DNA from: Alloalcanivorax dieselolei B5
GTDB lineage: Bacteria > Pseudomonadota > Gammaproteobacteria > Pseudomonadales > Alcanivoracaceae
Assembly: GCF_000300005.1 (NCBI RefSeq)
Contig: NC_018691.1
Span: 992,001-1,056,000, forward strand
Direction of reading: 5' to 3'
DNA length: 64,000 bases
Shown here: positions 2 through 34,063 of the stretch, in pieces
Layout: each line of letters starts with the position of its first letter
Numbering within the stretch: the first letter of the stretch is position 1
Notes under the pieces: model-generated
Seen by the model: only the letters and a program-made list of their open reading frames with translations
Databases searched by the model: none
Told to the model about the DNA's origin: nothing
Program-made: the position numbers and the translations under genes

Positions 2-1096
2 GTGGTCAAGGAAGGCGCCATTCCCGGCACCATGGATGTGGATCTGGCCGTCGAGGATCAGACGCCCTGGAACGGCAGCCTGACCTTGAACAACGATTAC
101 AGCGCCGACACGGAAAAGCTGCGCACCGTCGCCACCCTCGGTCATTCCAACCTGTGGCAACGGGGGCACAGCATGTCGCTGACCCTGTTCACCGCGCCGG
201 AGGATACCGATAACGCCGAGGTCTGGTCGTTGAGCTACGGCATGCCGCTGTCCGAGCGCTGGTCCCTGCGCTTCTCCGGTTATACCTCCGACAGTGACGT
301 CAATACCGTGGGCGGCACCAGCGTATTGGGGCAAGGACAGTCCTACGGCGTTGCCGCCACCTACAGCATTCCGTTCGACGGCACCTGGGGACATTCCTTC
401 TCCCTCGGCGTTGATTTCAAGGACTTCGATGAGTCGCTGGAATTCGGCGGCGAAGAGGACACCATCCCGCTGAAATACGCGCCTTTTACCTTTGGCTATA
501 ACGGCTACTACTACACCGAAAAGAACCAGGGCTCGATCAATCTGACCCTGGTTACCGCTACCAATGAATTCCCCAGCAACAGCAGCGGCTGGGAAGAGTT
601 CGATTACAAACGGTACCGGGCCAAACCGGATTTCGCCGTGATCAAGGCCGAGGCCAGCAACGAGAGGCTGCTGGGCGAGTGGGGGCTGGCGACAAAACTG
701 AGCGCGCAAATGGCGTCCGGCTCGCTGGTGTCCAACGAGCAGTTCGCGGTGGGAGGTTCCGGCACGGTTCGGGGTTATCTGTCCGCGGAGCAATCCGCCG
801 ACGACGGTGTGCTGGCCAGTATTGAACTGCGCACCCCCTCCATCGCCGAGTGGCTGGGGTCCCCCTGGAGTCTGCTGCGCGCCCATGTCTTCGGTGAAGG
901 CGCGCATCTGACACTGCAAAACCCGTTGCCGGAACAGGACGATGAATTCGACCTGGCCAGTGTCGGTGTTGGTCTGCGGGCGGAGATTGGTGCCTGGTTG
1001 AGCGGACGGCTGGATCTGGGGTACCCGCTTACCGACGCGGAAAACACGGAAAAACATGACCCCAGAGTGCATTTCAGTATTACCGCCAGTTTCTGA
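2..1096 (+). CDS. Two-partner secretion outer-membrane transporter (TpsB/FhaC/ShlB family), 5'-truncated
   Basis: Outer-membrane beta-barrel that would export a large TpsA exoprotein across the outer membrane. The visible 364 residues hold the barrel: alternating beta-strand sequence throughout, the family motif GGSGTVRGY near residue 257 (the VRGY tip of the conserved L6 loop), and a C-terminal strand ending SITASF with the terminal Phe typical of BAM substrates. The N-terminal helix, POTRA domains and true start lie upstream of the window, so the initial Met is internal. The likely cargo is the exoprotein at 11200-23469, separated from it by eleven genes. An ExbB/ExbD/TonB-like set starts 60 bp downstream, as I recall for P. 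aeruginosa PdtB. Family assignment is firm; cargo pairing is inference. Confidence 0.88.
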   Translation: MVKEGAIPGTMDVDLAVEDQTPWNGSLTLNNDYSADTEKLRTVATLGHSNLWQRGHSMSLTLFTAPEDTDNAEVWSLSYGMPLSERWSLRFSGYTSDSDVNTVGGTSVLGQGQSYGVAATYSIPFDGTWGHSFSLGVDFKDFDESLEFGGEEDTIPLKYAPFTFGYNGYYYTEKNQGSINLTLVTATNEFPSNSSGWEEFDYKRYRAKPDFAVIKAEASNERLLGEWGLATKLSAQMASGSLVSNEQFAVGGSGTVRGYLSAEQSADDGVLASIELRTPSIAEWLGSPWSLLRAHVFGEGAHLTLQNPLPEQDDEFDLASVGVGLRAEIGAWLSGRLDLGYPLTDAENTEKHDPRVHFSITASF

Positions 1097-1155
1097 ACAG
1101 AACCAAGGGCGTCCCCAAGGGCGACCAAACAGCTTGTTTTTCGGAGTGTCTGATC

Positions 1156-3060
1156 ATGCAACAACGCCTGCTGATTTTTCTCATATCCTGCCTGGGTGCG
1201 CTGTTGCCCACCCTGGCCCATGCCTGGTGGCAAGACGACTGGAGTTACCGCAAGCAAATCACCATCGATACCTCGCCCCAGGGCGCGGCCATCGATCAGC
1301 GGGTCGGCCGGGTACCGCTGCTGGTACGTCTGCATACCGGTAATTTCAGTTTTCAGGACGTCCAGGAAAACGGCTCGGACCTGCGCTTTGTCGCCGCGGA
1401 CGATCAGACCGTTCTCAATCATCAGATTGAAAGTTTCGACGCGCTGTTGGGCGTGGCCTACATCTGGGTGGACGTGCCGGCGCTGGAAGCCGGGTCCAGC
1501 CAGGATGTCTGGATGTATTACGGCAACCCCGACGCACCGGCCACCAGCAACGGTCAGGCGGTGTTCGACGCGGATTACACCCTGGTCTATCACTTTGACC
1601 AGGCGCCCGGCGCACCGGCCCGTGATGCCACCGCCTACGGCAACAACTCCAGTAACACCGTGCCGCAAAGTGTCACCGGGGTGATCGGCCAGGCAGCCGC
1701 CTTCGCCGGTGGCGAACCGCTGATGGTGGACGCCGCGCCGGCCCTGGCGACGCCCGCCGCCGGTCAGTTCTCCTTCAGCGCCTGGGTGCGTGCCGATCAG
1801 AGTGCCAACGAACAGCTGATTTATGCCCGCCGTGACTCCGGCAACTCGCTGCTGATCGGAATCAATGCTGGCCAGCCTTTCGTTGAGGTCAATGGCCAGA
1901 GGACGGCGCCGGCGCAACCACTGGCATCCGGTCAGTGGCAGCACCTGGCGGTGACCGCCGATGGGCAGCAAGTGGCGTTGTACGTGAATGGCCGCCAGAT
2001 CAGCAGCTTGCCGGTGGCACTGCCGCCGCTGGCCACCGCCATCGCCTTGGGGGGCGATATTCCGGGTTACACGCCCGCCGCGCCGGTTGCGGAAGAGACC
2101 GCGAGTGAAGGGGAGGACGTCGCCACTACTGTCGCCACTTCCACGCCGGCAGCGACGCCATCCCGCCACTTCAATGGCGCTATGGATGAAGTGCGGATTT
2201 CCAAACAGGCCCGGTCAGCGCCGTTGCTGATGGCGGATTACCAGGCCCAGGGTTCCGAGTCGCGGCTGGTGGTGTTCGGCGTCGACGAAGAGCAGTCCGG
2301 ATTCGGTTTTGGCGCTCTCGGCTTTTTGCTGAGCGCGGTGCCCATCGACGCCTGGGTCATCATCGGGGTCCTGGTGATCATGATGATCCAGACCTGGTTC
2401 GTCATGTTCCGCAAGTTCCGTTATACCCGCCGGGTGGACGAAGCCAACGGCCGTTTCCGTGGCGAGTTCGCTCAGGTCGGCACGCAACTGGAAAAAATGG
2501 CGGACAGCCCGGAGCTGGAACAGGAACTGGAACACTCATCGCTATGGCAGCTGTACCAAGTGGCGGTGCATGAGCTGCGTTTGCGCCGTGCCCAGGGCGC
2601 CGATACTTCCAGTATTTCCTCGGAAACGCTGGAAGCGATCCGCGCTTCTATGGACGCCGTTCGCACCCAGCAGAATCGCGAGCTGAGTTCCCGTCTCGGT
2701 GTTCTCTCCAACGCCATCGCCGGCGGCCCCTACATCGGCCTGCTGGGTACGGTGATGGGCATCATGGTGGTGTTTCTCGGCACCGCCATGGCCGGGGACG
2801 TGAACATCAACGCGGTGGCACCGGGTATGGCCGCAGCCCTGCTGGCTACCGCCATGGGGTTGTTCGTGGCGATCCCGGCCCTGTTTGCCTACAACCGCAT
2901 CAACGGCCGTAACCGCGATATCAGTTCCGACATGCGCGTCTTCCTGGACGAATTCGTCACCCGCCTGGCGGAGATTCATGGCGCCGGGCAGCGGTCGCCG
3001 CAGCCGGCGCAGGCCGGTCATGCCGCGCGCCATGGCATCTCTCAAAGTCCGGTGGTGTAA
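1156..3060 (+). CDS. exbB: MotA/TolQ/ExbB proton-channel protein with periplasmic DUF2341 and LamG domains
   Basis: Proton-channel subunit that would energise an envelope process together with the ExbD and TonB-like proteins encoded next. Residues 1-23 are a signal peptide. A DUF2341-like module follows (starting WWQDDWSYRKQI, about 24-140), then a LamG/concanavalin-like jelly roll (about 145-365, closing with FNGAMDEVRISKQ). Three membrane segments lie near 396-418, 523-546 and 557-580; the last two carry the ExbB/TolQ signature GPYIGLLGTVMGIM. At 634 residues it is well over twice the length of ordinary ExbB (about 240), the excess being the N-terminal ectodomain. It is followed by exbD after 11 bp, so the two are almost surely cotranscribed. 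The domain order is read directly; a carbohydrate or surface ligand for the LamG part is only inferred. Confidence 0.9.
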   Translation: MQQRLLIFLISCLGALLPTLAHAWWQDDWSYRKQITIDTSPQGAAIDQRVGRVPLLVRLHTGNFSFQDVQENGSDLRFVAADDQTVLNHQIESFDALLGVAYIWVDVPALEAGSSQDVWMYYGNPDAPATSNGQAVFDADYTLVYHFDQAPGAPARDATAYGNNSSNTVPQSVTGVIGQAAAFAGGEPLMVDAAPALATPAAGQFSFSAWVRADQSANEQLIYARRDSGNSLLIGINAGQPFVEVNGQRTAPAQPLASGQWQHLAVTADGQQVALYVNGRQISSLPVALPPLATAIALGGDIPGYTPAAPVAEETASEGEDVATTVATSTPAATPSRHFNGAMDEVRISKQARSAPLLMADYQAQGSESRLVVFGVDEEQSGFGFGALGFLLSAVPIDAWVIIGVLVIMMIQTWFVMFRKFRYTRRVDEANGRFRGEFAQVGTQLEKMADSPELEQELEHSSLWQLYQVAVHELRLRRAQGADTSSISSETLEAIRASMDAVRTQQNRELSSRLGVLSNAIAGGPYIGLLGTVMGIMVVFLGTAMAGDVNINAVAPGMAAALLATAMGLFVAIPALFAYNRINGRNRDISSDMRVFLDEFVTRLAEIHGAGQRSPQPAQAGHAARHGISQSPVV

Positions 3061-3071
3061 GGAGAACAACG

Positions 3072-3497
3072 ATGGCTTCGGTAAGAACGTCGATGGACGA
3101 CGATGAAATGGACGGGCCGGTGGACGGCATCAATATCACGCCGCTGGTGGATGTGCTCATGGTGGTGCTGGTGATGTTCATCCTCACCGCCACGGCGCAG
3201 ATCGCCGGCATCAAGGTGGATCTGCCCAAGGCCAGCTCCTCGGTGTCGCTGTCCGAATCCAAGACCAAGGCCATTTCGGTGAACAACGACGGGCAGGTGT
3301 TTCTCGATGCCTACCCGGTGACGCTCGCTGAACTGGAGGATCGGTTGCGTACCGAGAAAGCCATGAACCCCGGCTTTCCGGTGATCGTGCGCGGGGACGC
3401 CGCGGTGCAATACCAGAAAGTGGTGCAAGTGCTGGATGTGCTGCGGCGCCTGGATCTCAACCAGGTCGGTCTGGTGACCGGCAAGCCGCCGCAGTGA
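3072..3497 (+). CDS. exbD: ExbD/TolR-family biopolymer transport protein
   Basis: Inner-membrane partner of ExbB that couples proton flow to a periplasmic energy transducer. The 141-residue length and layout fit ExbD: short acidic cytoplasmic N-terminus, one membrane helix (about residues 25-45, reading PLVDVLMVVLVMFILTA with the proton-binding Asp of the LVDV motif), then the periplasmic domain with KVDLPKA and a C-terminal segment about gaining register in a repeated readout (VIVRGDAAVQYQKVVQVLD). It sits 11 bp after the ExbB-like gene and ends just before the TonB-like gene, forming a three-gene energising module dedicated to this locus rather than the general iron-uptake TonB system. Assignment is secure; the energised partner is inferred from context. 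Confidence 0.93.
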   Translation: MASVRTSMDDDEMDGPVDGINITPLVDVLMVVLVMFILTATAQIAGIKVDLPKASSSVSLSESKTKAISVNNDGQVFLDAYPVTLAELEDRLRTEKAMNPGFPVIVRGDAAVQYQKVVQVLDVLRRLDLNQVGLVTGKPPQ

Positions 3498-3526
3498 TCG
3501 ATGACAACCGGATAACAGGAAGAACC

Positions 3527-4285
3527 ATGTCGTTGCAGTCACCTCAATCGCGGGATTCCGGAACGGCCTCGGGCAAGCGGCATTCCGTTTCCGCGAGCAG
3601 GGCATCCCGTACCCGGCGCGGGCCGATGACCTATGTGCGCTTCGCTGTCGGCGCGGTGGTGTTGATTGTTCTGGGCTGGCTGATCTGGCAATGGGCCAAC
3701 GATATGAGCGGTGTGCGCCGGCAGGTGCCGCAGGAGCCGATGCTGGTACCGCTGCCGCCACCGCCACCGGAGCCGGAACCGGAGGAAATGAAGGAACCGG
3801 AACCGGAGCCCGAGCCGGAGGAGATCGTCGAACCGGAGCCGGAGCCCACTCCGGTGGAAGAGCCGACGCCTGAGGAACCGCCGTCACCGTCGGATGATTT
3901 GTCCGAGGCCATGCAGATCGACGGCGAGGCCCAGGCCGGTACCGACGCCTTCAATATCAGTGCCGGCGGTGGTGGCGGTATGGCCGGCTCCGGCACCGGC
4001 CGGGTCGGCAACGCCACCTACGGGCAGTATCTCTCCTACGCGTTTCAGCGGGCGCTGCGCGAGGAGCCGTCGATCCGTCATCTGAGTTACCGGATACAGA
4101 TCAATCTCTGGCTTAACGAAGCCGGCCAGATCACCCGGGTGCAGTTACTGAACTCCAGCGGTGACCCGGATACGGACGACAAAGTGATCGCCGCCGTGCG
4201 TGCCATTCCGGCGTTGGATCAGAAGCCGCCGAAGTCGATGACTTTGCCGGTGAAAGTGGCTTTGCAAGGGCGGCGTCCGGGCTGA
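3527..4285 (+). CDS. TonB-like energy transducer
   Basis: Predicted TonB-type protein of 252 residues that would span the periplasm and touch an outer-membrane partner. A basic cytoplasmic tail leads into one membrane helix (FAVGAVVLIVLGWLIWQW), then a Pro/Glu-rich rod (PPPPPEPEPEE and similar, about 50 residues), a Gly-rich hinge, and a TonB C-terminal-like domain (YRIQINLWLNEAGQITRVQL to the end). The ATG at 3527 is chosen because AGGAAG lies just upstream; a GTG at 3494 would overlap exbD and has no good ribosome site. The C-terminal domain resembles the tail of the STN protein at 10165-10920. Energising the porin-like protein, the TpsB or another barrel are all possible. Confidence 0.85.
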   Translation: MSLQSPQSRDSGTASGKRHSVSASRASRTRRGPMTYVRFAVGAVVLIVLGWLIWQWANDMSGVRRQVPQEPMLVPLPPPPPEPEPEEMKEPEPEPEPEEIVEPEPEPTPVEEPTPEEPPSPSDDLSEAMQIDGEAQAGTDAFNISAGGGGGMAGSGTGRVGNATYGQYLSYAFQRALREEPSIRHLSYRIQINLWLNEAGQITRVQLLNSSGDPDTDDKVIAAVRAIPALDQKPPKSMTLPVKVALQGRRPG

Positions 4286-4346: not shown

Positions 4347-6041
4347 ATGAACATGAAGCGCAATCAGTGGCTGCTGATGCTGGCCGTGGCGGCGACCTTG
4401 AGCGGCCCGGCCGTGGCGCAGACACCCGCCGAATCCACCGCGCCGGGGGGCAACAGCACTACCGTGCACCTGATCCGGTTGTTGGTGGAACAGGGGGTGA
4501 TCACCGACGCCCAGGCCAACGCCTTGCTACAGCAGGCGCAACAGGAGGCCCAGGCTGCCAGCCAGCGCCGCCCCGAGCCGGACGTGCGGGAAGGGGACGT
4601 GCGTGTTCCCTACATCCCGGAAGTGGTTCGTGACGAGATTCGCGAAGAGGTCAAACAGGAAGTGATGACCCAGGCCAAGGCGGAAAACTGGGCGGCGCCG
4701 AATACCTTCCCGGACTGGGTGTCTCGGGTGAAGCTGTTCGGTGATGTGCGGGTACGAAATGAGAGCCGGTTCTTCTCCGGGGATAACAGTGATCAGCTTA
4801 TCGACTTCGTGGAGTTTAATGAGGATAACTATAACGTCAATGATGACTCGGTGACGTATCCTTTCCCAACGATAAATACTCGCGAGGACCGCGAGAATCT
4901 ACTGCGCATCCGCGCCCGTTTCGGTCTGGAGGCGAAGCTGTCCGAGAACTGGACCACCGGAGTCCGGCTCGCCACCGGCAGCAGCAACGGACCGGTGTCC
5001 ACCACTCAGACCCTCGGCGGCGGCTTGAGCAAGAAAGACATCTGGCTGGACCGGGCCTGGATCAGTTGGCATCCGGGAAACTGGAACTTTACCGCCGGCC
5101 GGGCTGAAAACCCGTTCGTATCCACGGATATCCTTTACTCCGGCGATCTGAACTTCGACGGCATCTCCGCTGGCTTTTCAGGGCTGCGTTTCAGTCAGCG
5201 CGGGAGTGTCTTCGGCACCCTGGGCGCTTTCCCGTTGCAATACAGCGATGATGACTGGCCCTCCAACAGCTTTGATAAAGGCGAAAGCGAGGACCGCTGG
5301 CTGGTGGGCGCTCAGATTGGTGCCAATTGGGAATTTGAAAATCAGAACCGCTTCCAGGCCACCCTTGCTTATTACGACTTCACCAATGTTCGTGGCCAGC
5401 GTTCTTCCGAATGTTTCCTGTACCAAAGCGGCCCACCCTGTGACACCGACTGGTCGGTGCCGGCGTTCATGCAAAAGGGCAATACTTTGTTCCTGTTACG
5501 CGATATCCAGCTGGATCCCAATGATCCGGAGCATACTCCGATGCCGCAGTACGTTGGCCTGGCCTCCAAGTTCCAGTTGTTTGATCTGAATGTGCGTTGG
5601 GATACCACGTTGTTCAACGGCTACAAATTGCAGCTGGCGGGTAACTACATCTACAACCACGGCTACGACGAGCAGGAGATGTGGCAGAACGCCGAAGGCA
5701 ATCTGGTCAACAACTTCGACCTGAACACCGGCGAAATCGAGAGCGGCCGTGACGCCTGGATGGTGCATGCCGCTTTCGGGTCGTCCCTGGACCTGAAACG
5801 CCGCGGCGACTGGATGACGTTCCTGGGCTACAAATACATCAAGCCGGATGCGTTGCCGGATGCCTACAACGATTCTTCCTTCCACCTTGGCGGCACCAAC
5901 GCCAAGGGCTACTACCTGGGCGCGGCTTACGCCTTGAACGAGCGTCTGTACTTCCAGGGACGCTGGATGAGTTCGGAAGAGGTGTATGGGCCGCCGCTGT
6001 CCATCGACATTTTGCAGCTCGAACTGAATGCCCGGTTCTGA
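4347..6041 (+). CDS. Putative outer-membrane porin (Porin_5-like)
   Basis: Secreted 564-residue protein with a signal peptide cut near AVAQTPA. A short helical stretch (about residues 35-85, including LIRLLVEQGVITDAQANAL) and a coiled region precede a long beta-barrel rich in alternating aromatic strands, ending LQLELNARF with the terminal Phe of outer-membrane barrels. The helix-then-barrel layout is that of the putative porin family usually labelled Porin_5. It lies 61 bp after the TonB-like gene in the same direction, so the two may be transcribed together. Whether it is a diffusion pore, or a TonB-linked gate for a product of this locus, cannot be read from sequence; no plug domain or TonB box was recognised. 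Confidence 0.75.
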   Translation: MNMKRNQWLLMLAVAATLSGPAVAQTPAESTAPGGNSTTVHLIRLLVEQGVITDAQANALLQQAQQEAQAASQRRPEPDVREGDVRVPYIPEVVRDEIREEVKQEVMTQAKAENWAAPNTFPDWVSRVKLFGDVRVRNESRFFSGDNSDQLIDFVEFNEDNYNVNDDSVTYPFPTINTREDRENLLRIRARFGLEAKLSENWTTGVRLATGSSNGPVSTTQTLGGGLSKKDIWLDRAWISWHPGNWNFTAGRAENPFVSTDILYSGDLNFDGISAGFSGLRFSQRGSVFGTLGAFPLQYSDDDWPSNSFDKGESEDRWLVGAQIGANWEFENQNRFQATLAYYDFTNVRGQRSSECFLYQSGPPCDTDWSVPAFMQKGNTLFLLRDIQLDPNDPEHTPMPQYVGLASKFQLFDLNVRWDTTLFNGYKLQLAGNYIYNHGYDEQEMWQNAEGNLVNNFDLNTGEIESGRDAWMVHAAFGSSLDLKRRGDWMTFLGYKYIKPDALPDAYNDSSFHLGGTNAKGYYLGAAYALNERLYFQGRWMSSEEVYGPPLSIDILQLELNARF

Positions 6042-6070
6042 TCGACCTGGCGATGAAGGGAGGTAATACC

Positions 6071-6739
6071 ATGAAGATGACGGATAACGTCAGAACAAAG
6101 TGGTTCCCCGCGACGATAGCATTGCTGGTTCTGGCCTTGCCGGCGTGGACGCAAGCCCAGCAGTCCAGCCTGGAAGAACGTCTGCGCACCGAGTTACGCA
6201 ACACCACCCAGCAATTACGGGACCTGCAATCCCGGCAAGCGGGCCTGGAGGCGGCCCGCTCCAACGCGGAAGTGCAACGTGATGCTGCCCGGGCCCAGGT
6301 GGCCAAACTGCAGGCCCGGCTCGATGCGGTGGAAGGGAACCTGGTCTCCCAGCAGCGCAGTAGTCAGGCGCGCATCGCCGCCAGCCAGGAACGCACCGAG
6401 CAGATGCGTGGTGCCTACGATGAGTTGCTGACCCTGGCCAAGGGCAAGGAAGCGGAGCGTCTGACACTGCAAAAGGCATTGCAACAACGTACCGCCGAAT
6501 TGCAGACCTGCGTCAGCCGCAACGAGGAGATGTATCTGGCGGGTAAGGAGATTCTGTCCGCTTATGAAAGCCTCGGCGCCGGCAGTCTGTTCAAGATGCG
6601 TCAACCGTTGGCGACCTCGTCGCGGGTGGAGTTCGAGAACAGGGCCCAGGAAATGGGAGACCGACTGTACAACGCCCAGGTCGGCGTGGTGCGGTCGGAT
6701 CAGGACAGTAACGCCGGGGCGGCGGAAAACGACGGCTGA
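6071..6739 (+). CDS. Periplasmic coiled-coil protein, function unknown
   Basis: A 222-residue secreted protein. The start at 6071 follows GGGAGG at 6058-6063; an in-frame ATG at 6053 lacks such a site. A signal peptide (IALLVLALPAWTQAQ) is followed by about 110 residues of heptad-like coiled coil rich in Gln, Glu, Arg and Ala (for example LEERLRTELRNTTQQLRDLQ), and a short globular tail holding a single Cys (LQTCVSRNEEMYLAGKEIL). The resemblance to periplasmic adaptor or scaffold coiled coils is general. I do not recognise a named family. Its place between the porin and the YbjN-like gene suggests a structural role in the envelope machine encoded here. Confidence 0.65.
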   Translation: MKMTDNVRTKWFPATIALLVLALPAWTQAQQSSLEERLRTELRNTTQQLRDLQSRQAGLEAARSNAEVQRDAARAQVAKLQARLDAVEGNLVSQQRSSQARIAASQERTEQMRGAYDELLTLAKGKEAERLTLQKALQQRTAELQTCVSRNEEMYLAGKEILSAYESLGAGSLFKMRQPLATSSRVEFENRAQEMGDRLYNAQVGVVRSDQDSNAGAAENDG

Positions 6740-6779
6740 CATCATCGAAACGTCACAACGGTTTGTTAAGGACATGATC

Positions 6780-7292
6780 ATGAGCGACCACAACGACATC
6801 ATCGACACTCTGCCTATCGAGGAACTCAGCACCCTGCTGCGGCAAGCCGGTTATCGCACCAACGAAACCGAGCATAACGGCAGCAAGCAACTGCTCAGCG
6901 CCAGTCAGGGCATTGGTTTCGCCGTGCGCCCCGGCAACACATTGGGTGAGGGGCTGCTGGACTTCACCATCAGTTGCGCTCTGCGTGTCCAGGGCGAGTT
7001 GCCGGAGGGGCTGATCCCGGCCTGGAACCGTGGCAAGCGCTTTTCGCGCTTGAGCCGGCACGGTGATTTTCTGGTGCTGGAAATGGACGTGATCGTGGCC
7101 GGTGGTGTACGCCGCGCCTATGTGCGCGCCAACCTGGAAATCTGGGACCGTCTGTTGCAGGAGTTCCTGCTCTATCTGCGCAATTACCGTGACGAGAACC
7201 GTAATGAGAGCCGCGATGAAAGCCACGATAAAGACGATACCCCCGAACATGAGCAGGCGATAAGCACGGAAGCGGCGGAGAGTGACGAGTAG
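6780..7292 (+). CDS. YbjN-like domain protein
   Basis: A 170-residue protein with no signal peptide, so probably cytoplasmic. The body (IEELSTLLRQAGYRTNETE, then SFAV-like strand and helix elements and FLLYLRNYRDEN) has the alternating helix-strand layout of YbjN/type III chaperone-like folds. The C-terminal 40 residues are highly charged and probably disordered. The ATG at 6780 is preferred over 6774 because TAAGGA at 6767-6772 sits at a workable distance only from 6780. Some members of this fold act as chaperones for secreted or membrane proteins, so a role for an exported product of the locus is possible but unproven. Confidence 0.6.
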   Translation: MSDHNDIIDTLPIEELSTLLRQAGYRTNETEHNGSKQLLSASQGIGFAVRPGNTLGEGLLDFTISCALRVQGELPEGLIPAWNRGKRFSRLSRHGDFLVLEMDVIVAGGVRRAYVRANLEIWDRLLQEFLLYLRNYRDENRNESRDESHDKDDTPEHEQAISTEAAESDE

Positions 7293-7342: not shown

Positions 7343-8308
7343 ATGAAAAGCGCACAGGTTTTGCTCAGCGCGGTATTGGCCGGTGTTGCGGGTGTCATTG
7401 GCACCGTTTGGGTGATGCAGCCGTCCCAGGCGGTGGCCGTTTCGGAACCGGTATCGGTTTCGTCACCGGCGCCCTCATCACCCTCCTCCACCGGGCAAGG
7501 GGAGGCGGTTGCGGCCCTGGGGGCGGTCAGTCTGCGCGACCAGGAAGTGGCCGACTGGCTGGCGGCGTTGTCGCCGCGCGCCCGTACGGCAATCCAGCGG
7601 GATCGTGCGTTGTTTGATGATTGGGCGCGTCAGCGTCTGGCGGAAAAAGCACTGATTCAGGAGGCGCGGCAACAGGGCTGGGAGAAGCGGGAGGAAGTGA
7701 CGCGGGCCATCGATCAAGCGCGTGATCAGATCCTGCTGCGCAGTTACTTGCAGGCGGTGAGCCAGGTGCCGGAGGACTTTCCCGATGACGCCACGCTGCG
7801 GCAGCTTTATGAAAGCAGCAAGCAGGAATTGGCGGTGCCGGAACGCTATCACCTGAGACAGATTTTTCTCGCCGTGGAGGGCGCCAATGTCGATCAGGTG
7901 AAAGCACGCGCCGGGCAATTGGTGAAGGAAGCCCGCGGCAAAACAGGGGACTTCGCCGAATTGGCCCGCCGTCATTCAGATGACCCGGCTTCCGCCGCCC
8001 GGGGCGGTGATATCGGCGTGCAGTCAATAGCCCAGCTTACCCCGGAGGCCCGCCCGGTGGTGGCGGCGTTGAAGGAAGGAGAAGTCTCCGCGCCGTTCCG
8101 CACCGTGTCGGGTTGGCACGTGCTCAAACTGGAGAAGACCGAAGCGGCGCGAACCGCCACTTTCGACGAAGTGCGGGATCAACTGCGCGCCACGGTCAGA
8201 GAGCAGCGTCGGCGGCAGAACGCCGAGGCCTATCTGAATCGGTTGGTGGGTGAAGCTTCTCTCAATATCAATGGCGCGGCGGTAACGGCGCTGTTGGAAA
8301 ACCAATAG
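7343..8308 (+). CDS. PpiC-type (parvulin) peptidyl-prolyl isomerase
   Basis: Predicted periplasmic or membrane-anchored folding factor of 321 residues. An N-terminal hydrophobic segment (AVLAGVAGVIGTVWVM) and a Ser/Pro/Ala linker lead to a SurA-like helical region (about 60-160) and a parvulin domain (about 165-270) with family signatures RYHLRQIFLAV, GDFAELARRHSDDPASAARGGDIG and FRTVSGWHVLKLE. The reaction is cis-trans isomerisation of prolyl bonds. Its position in a run with a two-partner secretion transporter and a porin suggests it helps fold or keep unfolded an exported protein of this locus. An AAGGAG ribosome site stands before the ATG. Family is secure; the client is inferred. Confidence 0.88.
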   Translation: MKSAQVLLSAVLAGVAGVIGTVWVMQPSQAVAVSEPVSVSSPAPSSPSSTGQGEAVAALGAVSLRDQEVADWLAALSPRARTAIQRDRALFDDWARQRLAEKALIQEARQQGWEKREEVTRAIDQARDQILLRSYLQAVSQVPEDFPDDATLRQLYESSKQELAVPERYHLRQIFLAVEGANVDQVKARAGQLVKEARGKTGDFAELARRHSDDPASAARGGDIGVQSIAQLTPEARPVVAALKEGEVSAPFRTVSGWHVLKLEKTEAARTATFDEVRDQLRATVREQRRRQNAEAYLNRLVGEASLNINGAAVTALLENQ

Positions 8309-10920: not shown

Positions 10921-10931
10921 GCAGGCTCTGT

Positions 10932-23507: not shown

Positions 23508-23528
23508 ACATTGCCAGGAGACACAAGG

Positions 23529-26172: not shown

Positions 26173-27468
26173 ATGAAACAGTATCTGGTAAAACTGAGTA
26201 TGGCTGTGGCGTTCTCCATGGCCCCTCTGTATGCCCAGGCCACTGATTTGGTTGGTGGCGGCGCGTCATTACCAGCTATCGCCTTCGTTGGAGAAGACTT
26301 TACCTATACTTCGCCATCGTCCCGTTTGTCCACTAACACCACCCTGTTTCCCGGGTTTGATCCCATGTCAGGGGCGCCATATGTGCAATCGTTTATCAGT
26401 ATTGGATCTATATTCGATACTTTTGAAATGCTATCCGGAACACACACGGCTTCCTACTGCCAAACTGGTAACGGTATAGGAAAACGCGTTTTTCTTGGGG
26501 CTTCGGGATGGTCCGCTGATGGCGATTGCCGTGATTACGGGGCCGTGCCGGTGGGGTTCAGCCATCTGAATCCTGTCCCGGGCTTCTCGTCTTCGGCGGT
26601 ACCTCTCAGTGTGGATGACATCGTAACCTTCCAAAATGGTCACCAGGTCAATCGTGATAATCTGGTACAGGCTCCGGCATTGGCCGTGGCTTTGGGGCTG
26701 TCTTTCAATCTGGGTACTGGGCCTCTGAATCTTTCCGCCGATGATGTTTGCGGTATTTATGCCGGTATCTACCAATACTGGGACAGTATCAACCCGTCCT
26801 GGCCAAATCAGCCAATCGTGGTGGTGTACCGAGTCGATGACAGTGGTGCCACTGTTGCATTAACGCATTATCTTGCGGATACCTGTAATGGCCGTACGGT
26901 GAATGGAACGCCTATCCCAGGCAATCATTTTCAGACGGGTCAGAGTTTTCCTGCTGCCGTCGGAGGGGTGTCCAACTATTATGACGCTATCGCTGCCAGT
27001 GGTGACGTCGGTATCACTTCCACGGTGCAGTCCAATTATGGGAGCATTGGTTATGCCGGCTTCCCTACTATTGCAACAACGTCGGGGTTGGAGTATTTCA
27101 CCATTTCTGGCGTTGACCCCGTGGCACTGCCGAGCTTATTGACGATATCGCCCTCGCAACTTCTAGTGGACAGGGTGCTTGGTGCTAACACCTGGGGTGG
27201 CTTGCCAACTACACAGCCCCTCGACCCGGTTATGCAAGAGAGCTGCGTGGCCATGATTGATCCGGCTGCCCAATTGACTCAGGCTTATCCGATTGTTGCG
27301 TTTATCAACTTGCTGGGTTACACCGAAAATAACCCGGACCCGGGCGCGATTCGAGGTTTGTTCAAGGAAGTGATTGGTGGCACAACTCCTCTCCCTTCTG
27401 GCTATGCCTACTTTGATTCCACTACCATGTCATCCATGGAAACCCTGGTTGATGCTTGCATTAACTAA
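26173..27468 (+). CDS. PstS/DING-family paralogue (2) with eroded ligand residues
   Basis: A 431-residue exported paralogue of the preceding protein; signal peptide ends near LYAQATDLVGGG and both proteins share the frame YCQTG, GKRV-LGASGWSA, PIVAF-NLL-YTEN and C-terminal CIN. Residues that contact phosphate in PstS differ: SSTG is NGIG, the Asp of SDAPL becomes Ala in SSAVPL, and RSDGSGTT becomes RVDDSGAT. Base composition is visibly less GC-rich than its neighbours. An AAGGGG site precedes the ATG. It may bind another ligand, act structurally, or be drifting; there is no stop or frameshift. Homology is certain, function open. Confidence 0.82.
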   Translation: MKQYLVKLSMAVAFSMAPLYAQATDLVGGGASLPAIAFVGEDFTYTSPSSRLSTNTTLFPGFDPMSGAPYVQSFISIGSIFDTFEMLSGTHTASYCQTGNGIGKRVFLGASGWSADGDCRDYGAVPVGFSHLNPVPGFSSSAVPLSVDDIVTFQNGHQVNRDNLVQAPALAVALGLSFNLGTGPLNLSADDVCGIYAGIYQYWDSINPSWPNQPIVVVYRVDDSGATVALTHYLADTCNGRTVNGTPIPGNHFQTGQSFPAAVGGVSNYYDAIAASGDVGITSTVQSNYGSIGYAGFPTIATTSGLEYFTISGVDPVALPSLLTISPSQLLVDRVLGANTWGGLPTTQPLDPVMQESCVAMIDPAAQLTQAYPIVAFINLLGYTENNPDPGAIRGLFKEVIGGTTPLPSGYAYFDSTTMSSMETLVDACIN

Positions 27469-27596: not shown

Positions 27597-28403
27597 TCAG
27601 TCGCCCCCGCCACCCTGCGAATCAAACTGCACCGGCAGTCCTTCCAACGGCAATTGCCGGGAAAGAATCGCCCGGGTCACCGCATGCTGACGGTTGCGGG
27701 CGCGCAGTTTCCGGCAGGCGTTGCTGATGTGGTAGACCACGGTGCGCTCGGTGATGCCCAGGCGTTGACCGATTTCATTGTTGGTGTGGCCGGCGCTGGC
27801 CCATACCAGGCATTCCCGTTCGCGGCTGTTGAGCGCTTCGGCGCAATGGGCTTCACGTTGTTGTGCTGTGGTAGTGCCATCCTGGCCGCGCAGTGTGCGA
27901 GTGCGTTCCAGGATCACGTTGCCGAGCAGCAGGGCATAGGGCAGGAACTGATGAACGTGGTCCCAGGCGCGCTCGCCGTCTTGTTCACTGATCAGGTTGA
28001 AACGGGCATGCAGGCCGCCGATGGCCAGGGGAACGGTGCAGCCGGAGGCCATGCCGTGGTGGGCACGCAGGATCATGACGCGGCGTTGTTCGCCGGTGTC
28101 GTAGTCCGGCAGGGTCATGAGGGACCGCCAGTCCAGGGGTAACTGATGGTTCAGGGCATAGTGGACCAGCGGGTCGGTATTGATCAGGTGCTCGTCCCGG
28201 TAAAGTTGAACCCAGTCGTCGGCCAGATTATGCAGGCGCAGTGGTTCGGACTGATTCAGAGATACCGTGCTGTTGATGACAAAAAAATAGCAGTGGAAGC
28301 CGTGTTCACGAATGAAGTACTCCACCGCGGTGTGCAAACGTGTAAGACGTGTAAGGCGGGTGATAGCCAGGATCTGGGCCACCACGCTTTTGTCGTAGAA
28401 CAT
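27597..28403 (-). CDS. LuxR-family regulator with intact AHL-type pocket residues
   Basis: A 268-residue paralogue of the regulator at 23529-24320, on the opposite strand, so the two bracket the PstS-like pair. The N-terminal domain shows the autoinducer-binding pattern: Trp and Tyr in DDWVQLYRDE, Asp-Pro in NTDPLVHYAL, and Trp in LPLDWRSLM. The C-terminal helix-turn-helix is canonical (LNSRERECLVWASAGHTNNEI, ITERTVVYHISNACRKL). No synthase gene is present in the window. It is transcribed towards the PstS-like pair and away from the phosphatase gene, whose promoter region it shares. Family is certain; ligand is not known. Confidence 0.92.
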   Translation of the reverse strand: MFYDKSVVAQILAITRLTRLTRLHTAVEYFIREHGFHCYFFVINSTVSLNQSEPLRLHNLADDWVQLYRDEHLINTDPLVHYALNHQLPLDWRSLMTLPDYDTGEQRRVMILRAHHGMASGCTVPLAIGGLHARFNLISEQDGERAWDHVHQFLPYALLLGNVILERTRTLRGQDGTTTAQQREAHCAEALNSRERECLVWASAGHTNNEIGQRLGITERTVVYHISNACRKLRARNRQHAVTRAILSRQLPLEGLPVQFDSQGGGGD

Positions 28404-28589: not shown

Positions 28590-28607
28590 CTGTCACCTGC
28601 CGGTAAT
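28590..28607 (+). promoter_or_regulatory. Candidate Pho box upstream of the phosphatase lipoprotein gene
   Basis: CTGTCAC-CTGC-CGGTAAT gives two heptamers 11 bp apart, the PhoB spacing; against CTGTNAT-N4-CTGTNAT the halves have one mismatch each. A further TTGTCAT stands at 28578-28584, but 12 bp from the next half. It lies about 85 bp before the start codon of a predicted phosphatase, where PhoB control would make sense. Confidence 0.5.
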
Positions 28608-28692
28608 CGATTTGCCATTGTGCTCTCTTATGGTGCCCGATCTTTAGCAGGGTCTTTGCCCTGACATTGGTTTATCGATTCGGGAGAACATC

Positions 28693-31600
28693 ATGGGAGC
28701 TTGCGTTCGCCACGCGGGCCGATGGCGTGCGGCTGTATTGCCAGCGTTGATCGCGTCCTTGCTGGCCGGTTGTGGTGGGGATACCGACACCAAATTCGTC
28801 GACAAGATTGTCGACGTGCCGGTGGAAGAGGACGTCCCCTATGTGGAGGACCTCTCCGGTGCGGAAACCTTTACCGCGAATATAATCGCCGCGCCGGATG
28901 GCGCCGACGACCAGTTCCAGCCGCACCCGGCCCCGGTGGTCAATGGGGTGACCGAACGGGAGCAAGAGAAGGAACCGACGGTAATCAGCGATTACCAGCG
29001 TTTTCAGATCAACACTGATCTGAGTCTGACCAGCGGCCGTCTGAATCACGTTCGCGATGAAGGCATCTTCAGTGCTGAATTCACCACCGGCGGCAGTCTC
29101 TCTCTGGTGCCGCTGACCCGTTCCAACGGTCAGTTCTCCTTCGAGCGCACCACCGCGTCCGCCAACCATGCCATCGACAACGGCCAGAACGTGATTCTGG
29201 CGGTGAACGCCGATCCCTATAACATGACCCAGGGCTGGAACATGGGTCTGATCAAAAAGGACGGGGTCACCTACACGGGGTTTTCCGATCGCAACGAACA
29301 GGCGATCGTGGTCTACCAGGACGGCTCGCCCGGCATTCTGGAACAGGTGCCGGAGTTCACCCTGAACGTATACCACAACGGCCAGCTGCTGGAGCCGCTG
29401 GGCAAGGTGCATTACTTCGATAACGCCAGCCAGACCAACACCAGCTTCAGCCGTGGTAGTTCCGAGCTGGAGCTGTACCCGGCGGAAAGCTACCGCGGCA
29501 CCATCGATCTGACCGGTCGCAGCGCCGCGCTGATCGCCGCCGAGGCCAATGGCGTCAGCGTGGTGGAGCGAGGCGATGGACAACTGAGCGTGCAATTGCC
29601 GCCACTGTCCGGAACTGTGGTGGGGCGCGTGGAAGATCGCGCCCACTACGTGGTTCCCGCCGGTCATGCGTTGCTGGTGGATGGCGGCGCGCTGTCCGCG
29701 GGCAGCCGGGTGGCTATCCGTTACGAAACCGACGATCCGTCCTGGGACCAGGTGGAAAGCGCCTTGGGGGCCGGCTTCGGTCGGGGTCTGTTGGTGAAGG
29801 ACGGTCAGCTTGGCAGCAATCAGAATGAAGCCGACGTCAGCAGCCGTACCGCTTTCGGCATTCGCGCCGACGGCAGCGCTTTCTTCCTGGTGGTGGATAA
29901 GCCGGTAGGTGCGCCCGACGAAGGCATCACCCAGACCAAGCTGGGTCAGATCATGATTGGCTACGGCGCGGTGCAGGCTATCAACCTGGACGGCGGTGGC
30001 TCGTCCACGTTGGCGGCGCGTCTGCCTGGGGAACGCTACACCTATCTGGTGAATACGCCTTCCGATGGCGGCGAGCGGGTCACCGCCACCAAGTGGGGCC
30101 TGGTGTTGAACGCGGAACAGGCGCGCTACGACGCCAATGAGGTAGCGGTTTACCCCCGGGAACTGACGGTGATGGCCGGGTCCGTTTATCGCCGTTTCCG
30201 GGGCGTGGGGTACGACAGTGTGTCCTGGGAAGGGGGTGGTGACATCCCGGAGTACGGCATCAGCGATGCGTCCCTGGGATTGATCGACAGCCGCACCGGT
30301 GCTTTTAAGGCCGCCGATGCGGACGCACAAGGGTACGTGGTGGTTCAGGTCGGTGAGCAAAAGGGCGTGGCCCGAGTGCGTGTCACCGATACCATCGATG
30401 AGATCCGCTTCCCCAGCGATCAGTACGCGGTGGACAGCGGCGGCAGTCTGCAACTGACGCCGCTGCTTATCAGCAACGGCGACAGCGTGCACTACTCCAC
30501 CGACGCGATCAGCTATGCGTTGGATAACACCGACGATTGCGCTCTGAATCCTGCAACCGGCGTGCTATCCGTGGCGCCGGTACAAGGCCGCAGCTGTACC
30601 GTTACCGCCACCGCCGCCGGCGAGAGCGCCACTACCGTGGTGAACATCGGTGTGGCGCCGGAGCTGGTGACCGACTTCGAGGGTGACACCAGCGCCTTTG
30701 CGCCGGGCGGTGCGCGACACAATGCGGTGAATATCGAGAAAGTCTCCGACCAGGTATTCGCCGGCGACTATTCCATGAAGCTGAGCTGGGAAGCAAACCC
30801 GGCTCAGCCGGGGACGTTCGGTGCTTACCTGACCGACCCAAATAATGTTGTCAAATTGCCCGGCTATCCCAAGTATCTGGGTGTGAACGTTTATATCCCC
30901 GATGAACTGGCCGGCAAGGTGTGGTGGGTGCGCGGCAGTCTCAAGGATGCCGACGACAAGACCGTCACCTTGAACTACAACAACGACGGCGACGCCTTGC
31001 CGGAACGGGGCTGGCATTTCATGAAGGCGGAAATCGGTTCCGGCTACAGGGAACCACTGCGTTTCAATCAGCCGTTCCGCTTCCTGGTGTTGAAGACCGC
31101 CGAGCGCATCGACTCCCACGTGATTCTGGATGACTTCATTGCCATCTACAGCGATGACACTGATCTCGCCGGTCCCGGTGTGACGGTGTCGCCGCAAGCG
31201 GACGCCACGGTGGATCAGCCCGATCCGTTGTTGTCCCTGCAGGTGCATGACGATTCCGGTGTGGATTTCGGCAGCGCCTATGTGGCCCTGGATGGTCAGG
31301 ACGTTTCCGCGTCGCTCACCAACAATGGCCAGGACCGTATCGAATTCCAGAGCGCCGGTCTGGCGGACGGCTGGCACCGGGTGGACTACCGCGTGGCGGA
31401 TACCAACGGCAACGTCACCGCCGGGGATTATCTGTTCCAGGTGCTGACCGGCGGCCCGCGCGTTTACATCGACAGTGCCAATATCCAGTTCTACCCCGGC
31501 GGCACCTTCCAGGTACCGATTCGCGTGGAGGGCGGCGGCAACTTCGGTGACTTGAATCTGAGTCTCGACTACGACGCCACCAAAGCCGCCATGACGGTGA

Positions 31601-33258
31601 TCGATGGCGACCTGAGCGCCACCGATGTCAGCACCACGGAAGGCAACTGGAGCGGACGCTTTACCGGATTCAATGACAATACCGGCGTGGTGGCGTATCT
31701 GGAACTGAAGGTGCGCGACTACATCCAGAACACCTTCGTGTCCGTGGTGGTGAACGGCCAGTTGGATGGAGAGACCTACTACCACCCGGTGGTGCGCAAG
31801 GAAGTGGGCAGCCGTTATCGTTTGCTGACTCACTGGGGCATCAGCGGCCAGCAATTGGACATGCTGGTGGTGGATCAGCAGGGCAACGCCGCCTCCGGGG
31901 TAACGGTGGAGACCTTCACCTACAACAGTGGCACGGACCAGATCAGTGACGTGGTGGTGCTCGGCACCACCGACGCGGAAGGCCGCCTGGCGGTGACCCT
32001 GCCCGCTGGCAGCGACTCCCAGGATTTACTGTTCCGGGCCTATGACGATCAGGGCTCGTCGCTGATGACCGATGTGCAGGCCTTGGTGGAGCGGCTGACA
32101 CCGGCGCCGCGCCACCTGTACCTGACCCCGGGCAGCGATGGTACTCAGGTGAACGTGACCTGGTACACCTCCACGGACGTGAGCGCCAGCGAGGTCGCCT
32201 ACGGCACCGGTTCCTTGAACCAGACCGCCACCGGTGAATCCGAAATCCTGCCCTTCTTCTACGGCTCCGAAGCGGGTGTGGTGCGGGTGCATCATGTGGC
32301 GCTGGATAATCTGACGCCAGGAACCACCTACCGCTACCGGGTCGGTGATGGCGCCGGCAACCAAAGCGCCGAATTCAGCTTCACCACCGACGACGGCGAT
32401 GACCAGGTGAACATTCATCTGTTCGGTGACACCCAGACCCTGTCCAACGAAAACATCTTCAACGGCAGCGGTCTGGTGACGGAGCTGTATCGCAAGATGC
32501 AGGCGCAGTTGCCCGACGGTGATCTGATCCTGCACGTCGGCGACTTCACCGAGGACCTCAGCGACTACCGTCTGTTGCGTTTGTTCCTGGAATCCCTGGA
32601 AGGCGAGGACATGTTGGCGTCTCGTGTGTGGGCTCCGGCCGAGGGCAATCACGAGGTCTACAACGAAGGCGCGGAGAAGTTCGCCTCGATATTCCGCTTC
32701 GCCGAGACCGACAGTGGCGTGACCGATCCCTTCGAAGGCGCTATCTACAGCTTCGATTACGGCAATACCCACATCGCCGTGCTGACCAGCGAACTCACCG
32801 AGGAAAGCGACTGGCCGAAGATGATGGATTGGCTGCGCGCGGATATGAGCGCGTCCGACCAGACCTGGAAGATCGTCATGATTCACCGGCCGCCGTACAA
32901 CGGCAACCCGGCTTCCGGCAATGGCCGCGTGATGCAGTATCTGCCACCGGTGGTGGACGAGCTCGGCGTTGATCTGGTGCTCTCTGGCCACGACCACATG
33001 TACTCGCGCAGTGTGCCGATGGCGGGCGGACAGCCGCACCCGGCCGGTGCGACCTACCTGATCGCCGGTTCCGATTCGGCCAAGTACTACGACAACAACG
33101 GCGGCGGCATCGCGGAGTTCGCCGATGTGCTGTTCGACGACAACGTCAACACCTACACCACGCTGCAAATCGACGGCGAGAGCATGCATGTGCTGACGCG
33201 CACTCTCGACGGCACCGTGGTGGACGACACCATCATCACCCCACGGGCGGGGCGCTAA
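28693..33258 (+). CDS. Lipoprotein with phosphodiester glycosidase (NAGPA) and metallophosphoesterase domains
   Basis: A 1521-residue surface or periplasmic lipoprotein (lipobox LLAGC, about residue 26). A phosphodiester-glycosidase domain of NAGPA type covers about 90-470 (SSRTAFGIRADGSAFFLVV, then INLDGGGSSTLA). Ig-like and cohesin-like beta modules follow (about 500-1060). A fibronectin-type lead-in (about 1130-1230) precedes a calcineurin-like phosphoesterase: GDTQ 1243, GDF 1283, GNHE 1318, IHRPPY 1398, GHDHMYSR 1432. Architecture resembles purple acid phosphatases, but motif II is GDFTE, without the Tyr that binds the ferric ion. Together the two enzymes could strip a sugar from a phosphodiester and then release phosphate. 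The next lipoprotein gene starts 11 bp after the stop. Confidence 0.87.
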   Translation: MGACVRHAGRWRAAVLPALIASLLAGCGGDTDTKFVDKIVDVPVEEDVPYVEDLSGAETFTANIIAAPDGADDQFQPHPAPVVNGVTEREQEKEPTVISDYQRFQINTDLSLTSGRLNHVRDEGIFSAEFTTGGSLSLVPLTRSNGQFSFERTTASANHAIDNGQNVILAVNADPYNMTQGWNMGLIKKDGVTYTGFSDRNEQAIVVYQDGSPGILEQVPEFTLNVYHNGQLLEPLGKVHYFDNASQTNTSFSRGSSELELYPAESYRGTIDLTGRSAALIAAEANGVSVVERGDGQLSVQLPPLSGTVVGRVEDRAHYVVPAGHALLVDGGALSAGSRVAIRYETDDPSWDQVESALGAGFGRGLLVKDGQLGSNQNEADVSSRTAFGIRADGSAFFLVVDKPVGAPDEGITQTKLGQIMIGYGAVQAINLDGGGSSTLAARLPGERYTYLVNTPSDGGERVTATKWGLVLNAEQARYDANEVAVYPRELTVMAGSVYRRFRGVGYDSVSWEGGGDIPEYGISDASLGLIDSRTGAFKAADADAQGYVVVQVGEQKGVARVRVTDTIDEIRFPSDQYAVDSGGSLQLTPLLISNGDSVHYSTDAISYALDNTDDCALNPATGVLSVAPVQGRSCTVTATAAGESATTVVNIGVAPELVTDFEGDTSAFAPGGARHNAVNIEKVSDQVFAGDYSMKLSWEANPAQPGTFGAYLTDPNNVVKLPGYPKYLGVNVYIPDELAGKVWWVRGSLKDADDKTVTLNYNNDGDALPERGWHFMKAEIGSGYREPLRFNQPFRFLVLKTAERIDSHVILDDFIAIYSDDTDLAGPGVTVSPQADATVDQPDPLLSLQVHDDSGVDFGSAYVALDGQDVSASLTNNGQDRIEFQSAGLADGWHRVDYRVADTNGNVTAGDYLFQVLTGGPRVYIDSANIQFYPGGTFQVPIRVEGGGNFGDLNLSLDYDATKAAMTVIDGDLSATDVSTTEGNWSGRFTGFNDNTGVVAYLELKVRDYIQNTFVSVVVNGQLDGETYYHPVVRKEVGSRYRLLTHWGISGQQLDMLVVDQQGNAASGVTVETFTYNSGTDQISDVVVLGTTDAEGRLAVTLPAGSDSQDLLFRAYDDQGSSLMTDVQALVERLTPAPRHLYLTPGSDGTQVNVTWYTSTDVSASEVAYGTGSLNQTATGESEILPFFYGSEAGVVRVHHVALDNLTPGTTYRYRVGDGAGNQSAEFSFTTDDGDDQVNIHLFGDTQTLSNENIFNGSGLVTELYRKMQAQLPDGDLILHVGDFTEDLSDYRLLRLFLESLEGEDMLASRVWAPAEGNHEVYNEGAEKFASIFRFAETDSGVTDPFEGAIYSFDYGNTHIAVLTSELTEESDWPKMMDWLRADMSASDQTWKIVMIHRPPYNGNPASGNGRVMQYLPPVVDELGVDLVLSGHDHMYSRSVPMAGGQPHPAGATYLIAGSDSAKYYDNNGGGIAEFADVLFDDNVNTYTTLQIDGESMHVLTRTLDGTVVDDTIITPRAGR

Positions 33259-33268
33259 GGAGCTGACC

Positions 33269-34063
33269 ATGAAATTCGCCAAGACTTCATTGAGCCTGGC
33301 CGTCATGGCCTTCGCGTTGACCGCCTGTGGCGGCGATGACACCCGCTATGTGGATCGTGTCACCGAAGTCCCCGGTGACACCGTCGAGAACCCGGTGGAG
33401 TACATGCCCGTGGACGGCCACGTGCTGGGTTTCTGGGTCATGGACGCGGATGCCGACTGCGAGGGCTTTTGCGTCAATGATTATTCCGCCTACGGTAATC
33501 CGCTGTACGCGCTGGACGGCGGCTACCAGGAACTGGAAACCGCGCCGCGGCCGGAGGAGGGCGGCGCCGTTGGCGGCGTGCTGGGTTTCGACGGCACTTA
33601 TCAGCTGTCCACCCGGGAAAACTCGGTACTGGCCAACACCGTGATCGGCGAGGCGTTCGCAGTGCATGTGCGGGCTCGCAGTGCCGCCGACCCGCAGGGC
33701 TCGGTGTTCTCTCTGGGCAGTCAGGGAGCACTGGCCTTTGATTTGCAAATGAACGGTGCCGCCGCGGTGCTGAACTTCCCGAACCAGGCGCGTCGTCTGG
33801 TGGTGGCGTTGGGGGACGCCGGCACCTGGCAGGAACTGTGGGTGGGCAGTGACGGCAATCACGTCACGGTGCAGTTGGATTGTGAGACCGTGGCGGAGTT
33901 TGATCGCGACGCCGGCCTGCCGATTCTTTCCAGCCAGGCTACCGGTGCCATGGTCGGCGCCGCTTGGGGGAGCATGGCGCGGACCCCGTTCCAGGGAGAT
34001 GTGGACCTGGTACGGCTGAGCGGTAGCGACGAAGCGAATCTGTTCTGCCCGGAATCCGACTAA
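33269..34063 (+). CDS. Lipoprotein with LamG-like fold, partner of the phosphatase
   Basis: A 264-residue lipoprotein (lipobox LTAC, about residue 20). The first mature residues CGGDDTRYVDRVTEVP closely resemble those of the upstream phosphatase lipoprotein (CGGDTDTKFVDKIVDVP). The rest looks like a concanavalin/LamG jelly roll (VLGFDGTYQLSTRENS, AFAVHVRARS, FQGDVDLVRLSG). Four Cys residues in the mature region (ADCEGFC, LDCET, LFCPE) could form disulphides. AAGGAG before the ATG and the 10-bp gap from the phosphatase gene indicate one transcript. It may bind substrate or help anchor the enzyme; no catalytic motif was seen. Confidence 0.75.
   Translation: MKFAKTSLSLAVMAFALTACGGDDTRYVDRVTEVPGDTVENPVEYMPVDGHVLGFWVMDADADCEGFCVNDYSAYGNPLYALDGGYQELETAPRPEEGGAVGGVLGFDGTYQLSTRENSVLANTVIGEAFAVHVRARSAADPQGSVFSLGSQGALAFDLQMNGAAAVLNFPNQARRLVVALGDAGTWQELWVGSDGNHVTVQLDCETVAEFDRDAGLPILSSQATGAMVGAAWGSMARTPFQGDVDLVRLSGSDEANLFCPESD

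Follow-up and report, generated by a model that had tools for sequence, protein, structure and literature searches.

The first 34,063 positions of a 64,000-nucleotide stretch of the Alloalcanivorax dieselolei B5 genome (G000:C1:992001-1056000, hereafter the window; the genome is a single contig of 4.93 Mb) hold an island that is probably a phosphate-gated two-partner secretion (TPS) system of the PUMA3/Pdt type described in Pseudomonas aeruginosa, a reading to which a probability of about three in four is given. The new observation in this genome is that four DUF3739-type TpsA genes, each beside its own STN-sigma-FecR trio, coexist with a single ShlB-type TpsB gene (the sole PF03865 match, exporters having been sought with the ShlB model) and a single full Porin_5 gene (the sole PF16930 match), both of them situated at the window, which sets the genome apart from P. 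aeruginosa. The four trios share 27-46% identity with each other. Repeated clusters are not new in themselves, because a fourfold repetition of the PUMA3 cluster with one tpsB-exbBD set has been noted in Rhodopseudomonas palustris and Janthinobacterium (Llamas et al., PMC2729926). In that account tpsA comes after three of the clusters and tpsB after the remaining one, whereas all four trios of the present genome adjoin tpsA; the passage concerned contains neither a promoter nor a mosaic analysis.

Domains were identified by Pfam scans of the window proteins, which confirmed the gene set, from TpsB to a phosphatase lipoprotein, that had been named in an earlier, sequence-only reading of this DNA. 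The window opens inside tpsB, the start of which lies 536 bases upstream (L022:15465) and the C-terminal part of which, with ShlB and Omp85 domains, occupies 2..1096 on the plus strand. It is followed on the same strand by genes for an ExbB-type proton channel with a fused DUF2341 and LamG ectodomain (1156..3060), ExbD (3072..3497), a TonB-like protein (3494..4285), a Porin_5 outer-membrane porin (4347..6041; E 1.4e-210), a coiled-coil protein with a signal-peptide-like start (6053..6739; weak Pfam matches below the cut-off), a YbjN-family protein (6783..7292, start approximate), a PpiC-type peptidyl-prolyl isomerase (7343..8308), and a small lipoprotein without a match in the Pfam scan (8334..8663). 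The porin, coiled-coil, YbjN and PpiC genes take the positions of PA0696, PA0697, PA0698 and PA0699, which are annotated as porin, colicin-like, YbjN and PpiC in an excerpt of PMC7035377, and the order from TpsB to PpiC is, by published annotation, that of PA0692-PA0699. On the minus strand, pointing towards the tpsB operon and away from tpsA, lies the trio, composed of a FecR/VreR-like anti-sigma factor (8631..9614) and a VreI-like extracytoplasmic function (ECF) sigma factor (9611..10171, start approximate), both recognised by Pfam, and a VreA-like barrel-less receptor with an STN domain and a predicted TonB/TolA-like C-terminal domain (10165..10971, start approximate). The plus-strand tpsA gene (11200..23469) encodes, from the ATG at 11200, an exoprotein of 4089 amino acids with a TPS domain, a mosaic passenger and DUF3739. 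The island thereby displays the features of type Vb secretion, i.e., a TpsB with ShlB and an Omp85-type barrel and a TpsA with a TPS domain.

The barrel-less STN/TonB-like sensor, the ECF sigma factor and the FecR-type anti-sigma factor are shared with the PUMA3 system (VreA-VreI-VreR) as it is described in excerpts of PMC2729926, PMC4971064 and PMC7035377. The giant TpsA, the phosphate-protein neighbours and a composite promoter of the same geometry are shared with the PdtA/PdtB-ExbB2-ExbD2-TonB4-PA0696-PA0700 set, as far as the same excerpts describe it. An AlphaFold2 model of the VreA-like protein, built from 6 sequences, is two-lobed with moderate confidence (predicted local distance difference test, pLDDT, 65.7); its STN lobe matched FpvA (E 2.6e-6) and FecA in a fold search, and its C-terminus gave a weak match to HasB/TolA. 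The sensor is thus predicted to be bilobal, with an STN lobe and a weak TonB/TolA-like end. The homology to PUMA3 and Pdt that had been proposed earlier is largely borne out by the published gene order, the composite promoter and this bilobal prediction, the P. aeruginosa side of the comparison being published annotation and mapped promoter positions.

Several features distinguish the island from its P. aeruginosa counterpart. Besides the orientation of the trio, no PhdA gene precedes tpsB, and the upstream position is taken by a divergent gene, u3, without a Phd match. LuxR-type regulators and a NAGPA-phosphoesterase lipoprotein have been added, and no Hxc-type type II secretion (T2SS) gene is present among the scanned window genes. 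This agrees with the absence of T2SS genes noted in the sequence-only reading; elsewhere in the genome, however, the fourth TpsA has a GspD gene some 2 kb past it (L227, G000:C1:4159000-4178999). The arrangement also recalls HxuCBA of Haemophilus influenzae (PMC5422565, in excerpt), in which TPS genes are combined with an outer-membrane protein linked to Ton; unlike HxuCBA, the window has a full ExbB-ExbD-TonB set plus Porin_5, and no TonB-dependent receptor in the operon. In the open-licence PMC literature no paper was found holding both Alcanivorax and VreI, or both DUF3739 and two-partner secretion.

Comparison of gene order across the genus and Pseudomonas, which had been suggested as a check, supported a coherent system. 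ExbB was matched over almost its entire length in 10 of the 13 genus genomes, the window's own among them, and in 3 of 23 further genomes of the family; 2 of 21 genomes of the order gave matches in pieces. All 10 ExbB-positive genus genomes carry the operon, the trio, tpsA, a LuxR gene and at least one DING/PstS-like gene together, and the cluster is therefore not due to chance. At larger distance, the best 80 of at least 501 relatives were selected by a porin alignment scan; these named loci are not a random sample, because they were chosen by porin similarity, and no P. aeruginosa locus is among them. TpsB, ExbB with its ectodomain, ExbD, TonB, porin and coiled coil were located on one strand in 72 of the 80, the remaining 8 starting at a contig end inside the operon. 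Of these 72 loci, 66 also have YbjN and 55 have PpiC. The lineages include Pseudomonas, Halopseudomonas, Xanthomonas, Lysobacter, Solimonas, Achromobacter, Alcaligenes, Hydrogenophaga, and Bradyrhizobium, and the synteny thus spans gamma-, beta-, and alphaproteobacteria. In Pseudomonas fluorescens ISL-62 a matching layout runs u3, VreA-like, sigma, FecR, T2SS genes, DING, TpsA, a gene with a weak Phd match, and the TpsB operon. The trio-DING-TpsA layout recurs in P. chlororaphis, Pseudomonas sp. PSB18 and Halopseudomonas, in the last of which a secretin was confirmed. T2SS is not a general part of the arrangement, because TpsA directly follows the trio in the Achromobacter, Alcaligenes, Hydrogenophaga, Xanthomonas and Bradyrhizobium stretches.

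The association was also found across the class, in a sample of 369 genomes drawn evenly from it, of which 54 had any Porin_5 match and 24, the window's own genome included, a full-length one. Among the 23 full-length Porin_5 genes examined outside the window's genome (a second G277 copy received no locus), 22 adjoin a TonB gene and 21 a coiled-coil gene; none of the 6 weaker porins examined adjoins either. A TpsA of the DUF3739 type or a TpsB is present in 17 of the 19 loci fetched (up to 20 kb), TpsA being recognised by its DUF3739 end in 15 and by its N-terminus alone in 2, and TpsB itself in 4 of the 19. ExbB lies directly 3' of TpsA in 7 of the 10 loci listed. A conserved GxVRVxYxP precedes the barrel in Porin_5 (window 4347-6041 and relatives; 79 of 96 open reading frames). 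It is possibly a contact site for TonB or TpsA, and its reading as a TonB box is left as speculation. Two locus titles attracted attention in passing. The porin of L055, titled as a Klebsiella pneumoniae metagenome-assembled genome, matches that of G043 of the window's order, and the species label is probably wrong; L092, titled Gemmatimonadetes, is almost the same as Halopseudomonas L103 upstream of tpsB and is probably mislabelled too.

Phylogenetic footprinting within the genus revealed an invariant block 5' of tpsB, at a promoter that is situated just outside the window on its upstream side, and a similar block 5' of tpsA, consisting of an 11-bp direct repeat, TTCGGT or a relative, and C[AG]TCTA or a relative; at tpsA, the repeat ATGAACTTTCCGTGAAAA and the -35 region occupy 10989..11014 (plus strand). 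The same architecture is present 5' of phdA/tpsB in Pseudomonas and in some beta-proteobacteria, and a site matching a regular expression for it was detected in 47 of the 72 loci. The mapped P. aeruginosa pdtA promoter has repeats at approximately -56 and -45, a -35 region spanning -34 to -30 and a -10 spanning -11 to -5; each of these is required for activity, and binding of PhoB has been demonstrated (PMC4971064, in excerpt). The geometry of the tpsB site agrees with it within two bases; the likeness is one of geometry only, because the text of that source, as excerpted, gives positions and no letters. A composite weight matrix built from 13 distinct sites, all from other lineages, ranked the tpsB (28.0) and tpsA (24.5) promoters as top hits, the next best score in the window being 10.3. 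Sixty 81-kb Markov simulations gave maxima averaging 11.6, and a 40-Mb simulation contained zero sites scoring at least 24.5. The core RTGAAYTTTNNRTGAMAA has exactly two matches in the 4.93-Mb genome, at the tpsB and tpsA promoters (control 0). Three sites carry one mismatch, one of them 5' of the second tpsA and one 5' of the fourth trio. Moreover, among 22 genomes searched from the 80, the promoter site was present in 10 of the 16 with a full VreA-like gene and in 0 of the 6 without. Both promoters thus appear to combine a PhoB box with ECF-type -35 and -10 elements. Two pattern designs were discarded: a long pattern including the -10 matched the tpsB promoter alone in the genome, and a strict expression retrieved two sites only over the named loci until the -10 was left free.

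The island contains further genes with a likely bearing on phosphate. Two DING/PstS-like proteins, the first with an RSDGSGTT site (24789..26075, plus strand) and the second with a degenerate site (26173..27468, plus strand), account for two of the 3 PBP_like_2 matches in the genome. The phosphate-binding site is intact in the first, which has the DING structure 2q9t as its best solved-structure match (E 8.8e-16). The first protein resembles DING proteins in this match and in its conserved GGGATLP start, and differs in its mature start, TDLVGGG instead of DINGGG; the second departs from them by its degenerate site. Downstream, a lipoprotein of 1521 residues that combines a phosphodiester-glycosidase (NAGPA) domain with a metallophosphoesterase domain of the purple-acid-phosphatase type (28693..33258, plus strand) is preceded by a triple 11-bp Pho-box-like repeat (28590..28622, plus strand) that scores 17.7, close to the phoB (17.8) and pstS (18.0) boxes of this genome. 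Maxima in 60 simulations averaged 16.1, with 17.2 as the 95th percentile and 18.0 as the highest value, so the triplet is suggestive only; it is conserved in G006-G008, which are close relatives. In the divergent vreA-tpsA region TGTC repeats occur, with a Pho-box score of just 10.0 on the tpsA-facing strand.

On this basis, phosphate starvation would activate PhoB, which would bind the 11-bp direct repeat beside the ECF-type -35/-10. The FecR-like partner would hold the VreI-like sigma factor until the barrel-less VreA-like sensor triggers its release, and the freed sigma factor would transcribe tpsA and the operon from tpsB through exbB, exbD, tonB, porin, coiled coil and YbjN to PpiC, the sigma released by each VreA-FecR pair selecting its TpsA. 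The giant TpsA would then be exported by TpsB with periplasmic help from PpiC and the coiled coil, a private Ton motor may energise an outer-membrane part, either the porin or TpsB, and the DING-like proteins and the phosphoesterase lipoprotein would bind or free phosphate outside. Phosphate induction and the role of the Ton module are both inferred here from sequence.

Several observations weigh against the phosphate-gated TPS reading. The classical Pho box has the consensus CTGTCAT-N4-CTGTCAT, and a plain scan for it detected no box above chance at the tpsA or tpsB promoter; the repeat is a Pho box in reverse orientation only and departs from that consensus. The promoter site is lacking in 25 of the 72 named loci, its match to P. 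aeruginosa rests on geometry and not on letters, and 1 of the 60 simulations of 81 kb reached 26.2, the largest value. The tpsA site is weaker in G002, G004, G011 and G012 (14.7-15.4), and the third TpsA has no strong promoter site, the best scores of its region besides the TpsA2 site being 12.6 and 10.8. The gene set varies as well: PpiC is missing in 6 of the 10 genus genomes and in 17 of the 72 named loci, YbjN in 6 of the 72, and no full VreA-like protein accompanies the operon in 6 of the 22 named genomes (two Hydrocarboniphaga, two Solimonas and two Lysobacter). For the TonB-like end of VreA the fold match is weak (E 0.008-0.03) and the model of moderate confidence. Finally, no TPS gene was found within the fetched stretch in 2 of the 19 class-sample loci with the Ton-porin module (L200, L206).

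These two loci point to the most serious competing explanation, which we consider less likely than not, namely that ExbB-ExbD-TonB-Porin_5 serves co-regulated uptake, perhaps as a TonB-driven phosphate-ester porin, and shares the promoter and the starvation response but has no role in TpsA secretion. Inspection by eye pointed to a nucleotidase-like open reading frame downstream in L200, and in the window the module is found together with DING and phosphoesterase genes. A role in secretion is favoured by the TpsA or TpsB genes beside the module in the other 17 loci, by ExbB following TpsA directly in most of those listed, and by the PpiC gene in the same operon in the window.

It is rather unlikely that the promoters are driven by the ECF sigma factor together with another, phosphate-blind regulator of the OmpR/PhoB family, and thus by a different cue in this lineage. 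The reversed, non-classical repeat would fit such a regulator, as would the 51 matches of the PhoB model in the genome, most of which are other response regulators, and the autoinducer-type LuxR gene that adjoins tpsA in all 10 genus genomes with the cluster. On the other hand, the same repeat and -35 precede phdA/tpsB in Pseudomonas, where PhoB binding was shown for P. aeruginosa (PMC4971064, in excerpt), and the DING-like pair and the Pho-box-like NAGPA triplet lie in the same island. The LuxR genes themselves, both with an autoinducer domain, are located at 23526..24320 (LuxR1, plus strand) and 27597..28403 (LuxR2, minus strand); a search for LuxI (PF00765) gave no match, and control genomes were equally silent, so its absence is not demonstrated.

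An Imm11-family gene 3' of the second TpsA, elsewhere in the genome, raises the idea of a system resembling contact-dependent growth inhibition (CDI), in which the TpsA proteins carry toxins and their neighbours give immunity. This is improbable: unlike in CDI systems, TpsA1 ends near its DUF3739 domain with no toxin family matched by Pfam in a scan that covered TpsA1, and no immunity family was matched among the scanned genes that follow it. A chance assembly of unrelated genes has a negligible likelihood, being contradicted by the synteny over three proteobacterial classes and by the shared promoters.

Within the PUMA3/Pdt-type reading, the surface proteins deserve separate mention. Synonymous divergence (dS) from G006-G008 is 0.07-0.43 for the machinery, regulator and NAGPA genes, 0.4-0.9 for the porin, 0.9-1.0 for the DING-like proteins, and up to 2.7 for inner TpsA blocks. 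TpsA1 and TpsA3 of the same genome are 100% identical at 251-750 and 47-55% identical at 1001-1250 and 3001-3500, and at 1001-1250 the TpsA of G008 is 97% like TpsA3 and 54% like TpsA1. G006 and G007 share both TpsA type (96% over 1250 residues) and DING type (97%). We read the TpsA genes as mosaics, shaped by segment exchange rather than point change. The presence of a private trio with each TpsA suggests that the trio may read its own exoprotein rather than phosphate. A more far-reaching proposal, offered tentatively and with some doubt, is that one Ton-powered exporter and porin serves four cassette-shuffled TpsA proteins, each picked by a private VreA-sigma-FecR trio sensing its own exoprotein's export or ligand, with a common PhoB gate and u3 as third partner.

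The u3 gene, just upstream of the window and divergent from tpsB (L022:14774-15100, minus strand), encodes a small secreted protein that bears a C-terminal G-x3-G-x-S-x2-P-x-R-P motif and, in most cases, two cysteines. It occurs in 31 of 112 loci, the search covering loci around the system only, always within 450 bases of a tpsA, tpsB or trio gene, and beside the trio in 6 further stretches, with a spread over alpha-, beta-, and gammaproteobacteria. No Pfam or NCBIfam match was obtained, a literature search for u3 as PA0673/PigB gave unrelated works only among the matches listed, and a structure model was too poor for use (pLDDT 63; predicted template modelling score, pTM, 0.22). A weak Pho-box-like site facing u3 (score 9.5) is conserved in four close genomes. 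u3 thus appears to represent a small secreted family without a Pfam or NCBIfam match and a candidate new partner of the system.

Among the remaining parts, LuxR1 adjoins tpsA throughout the cluster-bearing genus genomes, and LuxR2, the NAGPA-phosphoesterase and the LamG-like lipoprotein that follows it (33269..34063, plus strand; weak Pfam match) were, like PpiC and the small lipoprotein, seen only in the window and G006-G008 (4 of 10 genus genomes; fetched stretches in the other six). Unrelated, ordinary metabolic genes start after 34063. Between LuxR1 and the first DING/PstS-like gene lies an inverted repeat, GTAGGAGCTTGCCCTGCAAGCGAAT, at 24385-24455, which is probably a dispersed element because a near copy was seen by eye at L135:110-180 of the same genome. 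Elsewhere in this genome, L225 and L228 (G000:C1:3505000-3538999) hold two further TpsA modules with their own STN-sigma-FecR trios. Between them the Imm11-family gene, a trypsin-like protease and an extra TonB_2 protein are located, and a weak promoter-like site at G000:C1:3525270 scores 10.8, within chance. The fourth module has a promoter-like site (score 25.9) 5' of its STN gene, and its GspD neighbourhood recalls the trio-T2SS arrangement of Pseudomonas.

As of 2020, the P. aeruginosa genes exbB2-exbD2-tonB4 were called uncharacterised and the function of PA0696-PA0700 unknown (PMC7035377, in excerpt). The comparative data closely associate genes of these types with DUF3739-type TPS exoproteins in alpha-, beta-, and gammaproteobacteria. 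They also yield a signature for the promoters, a small partner family that is new, and a genome that has one TpsB for four TpsA genes, in which the roles of these genes may be tested. If the reading of one exporter with four TpsA proteins is true, it would describe a Ton-energised type Vb secretion and surface-switching system that is spread through the proteobacteria.

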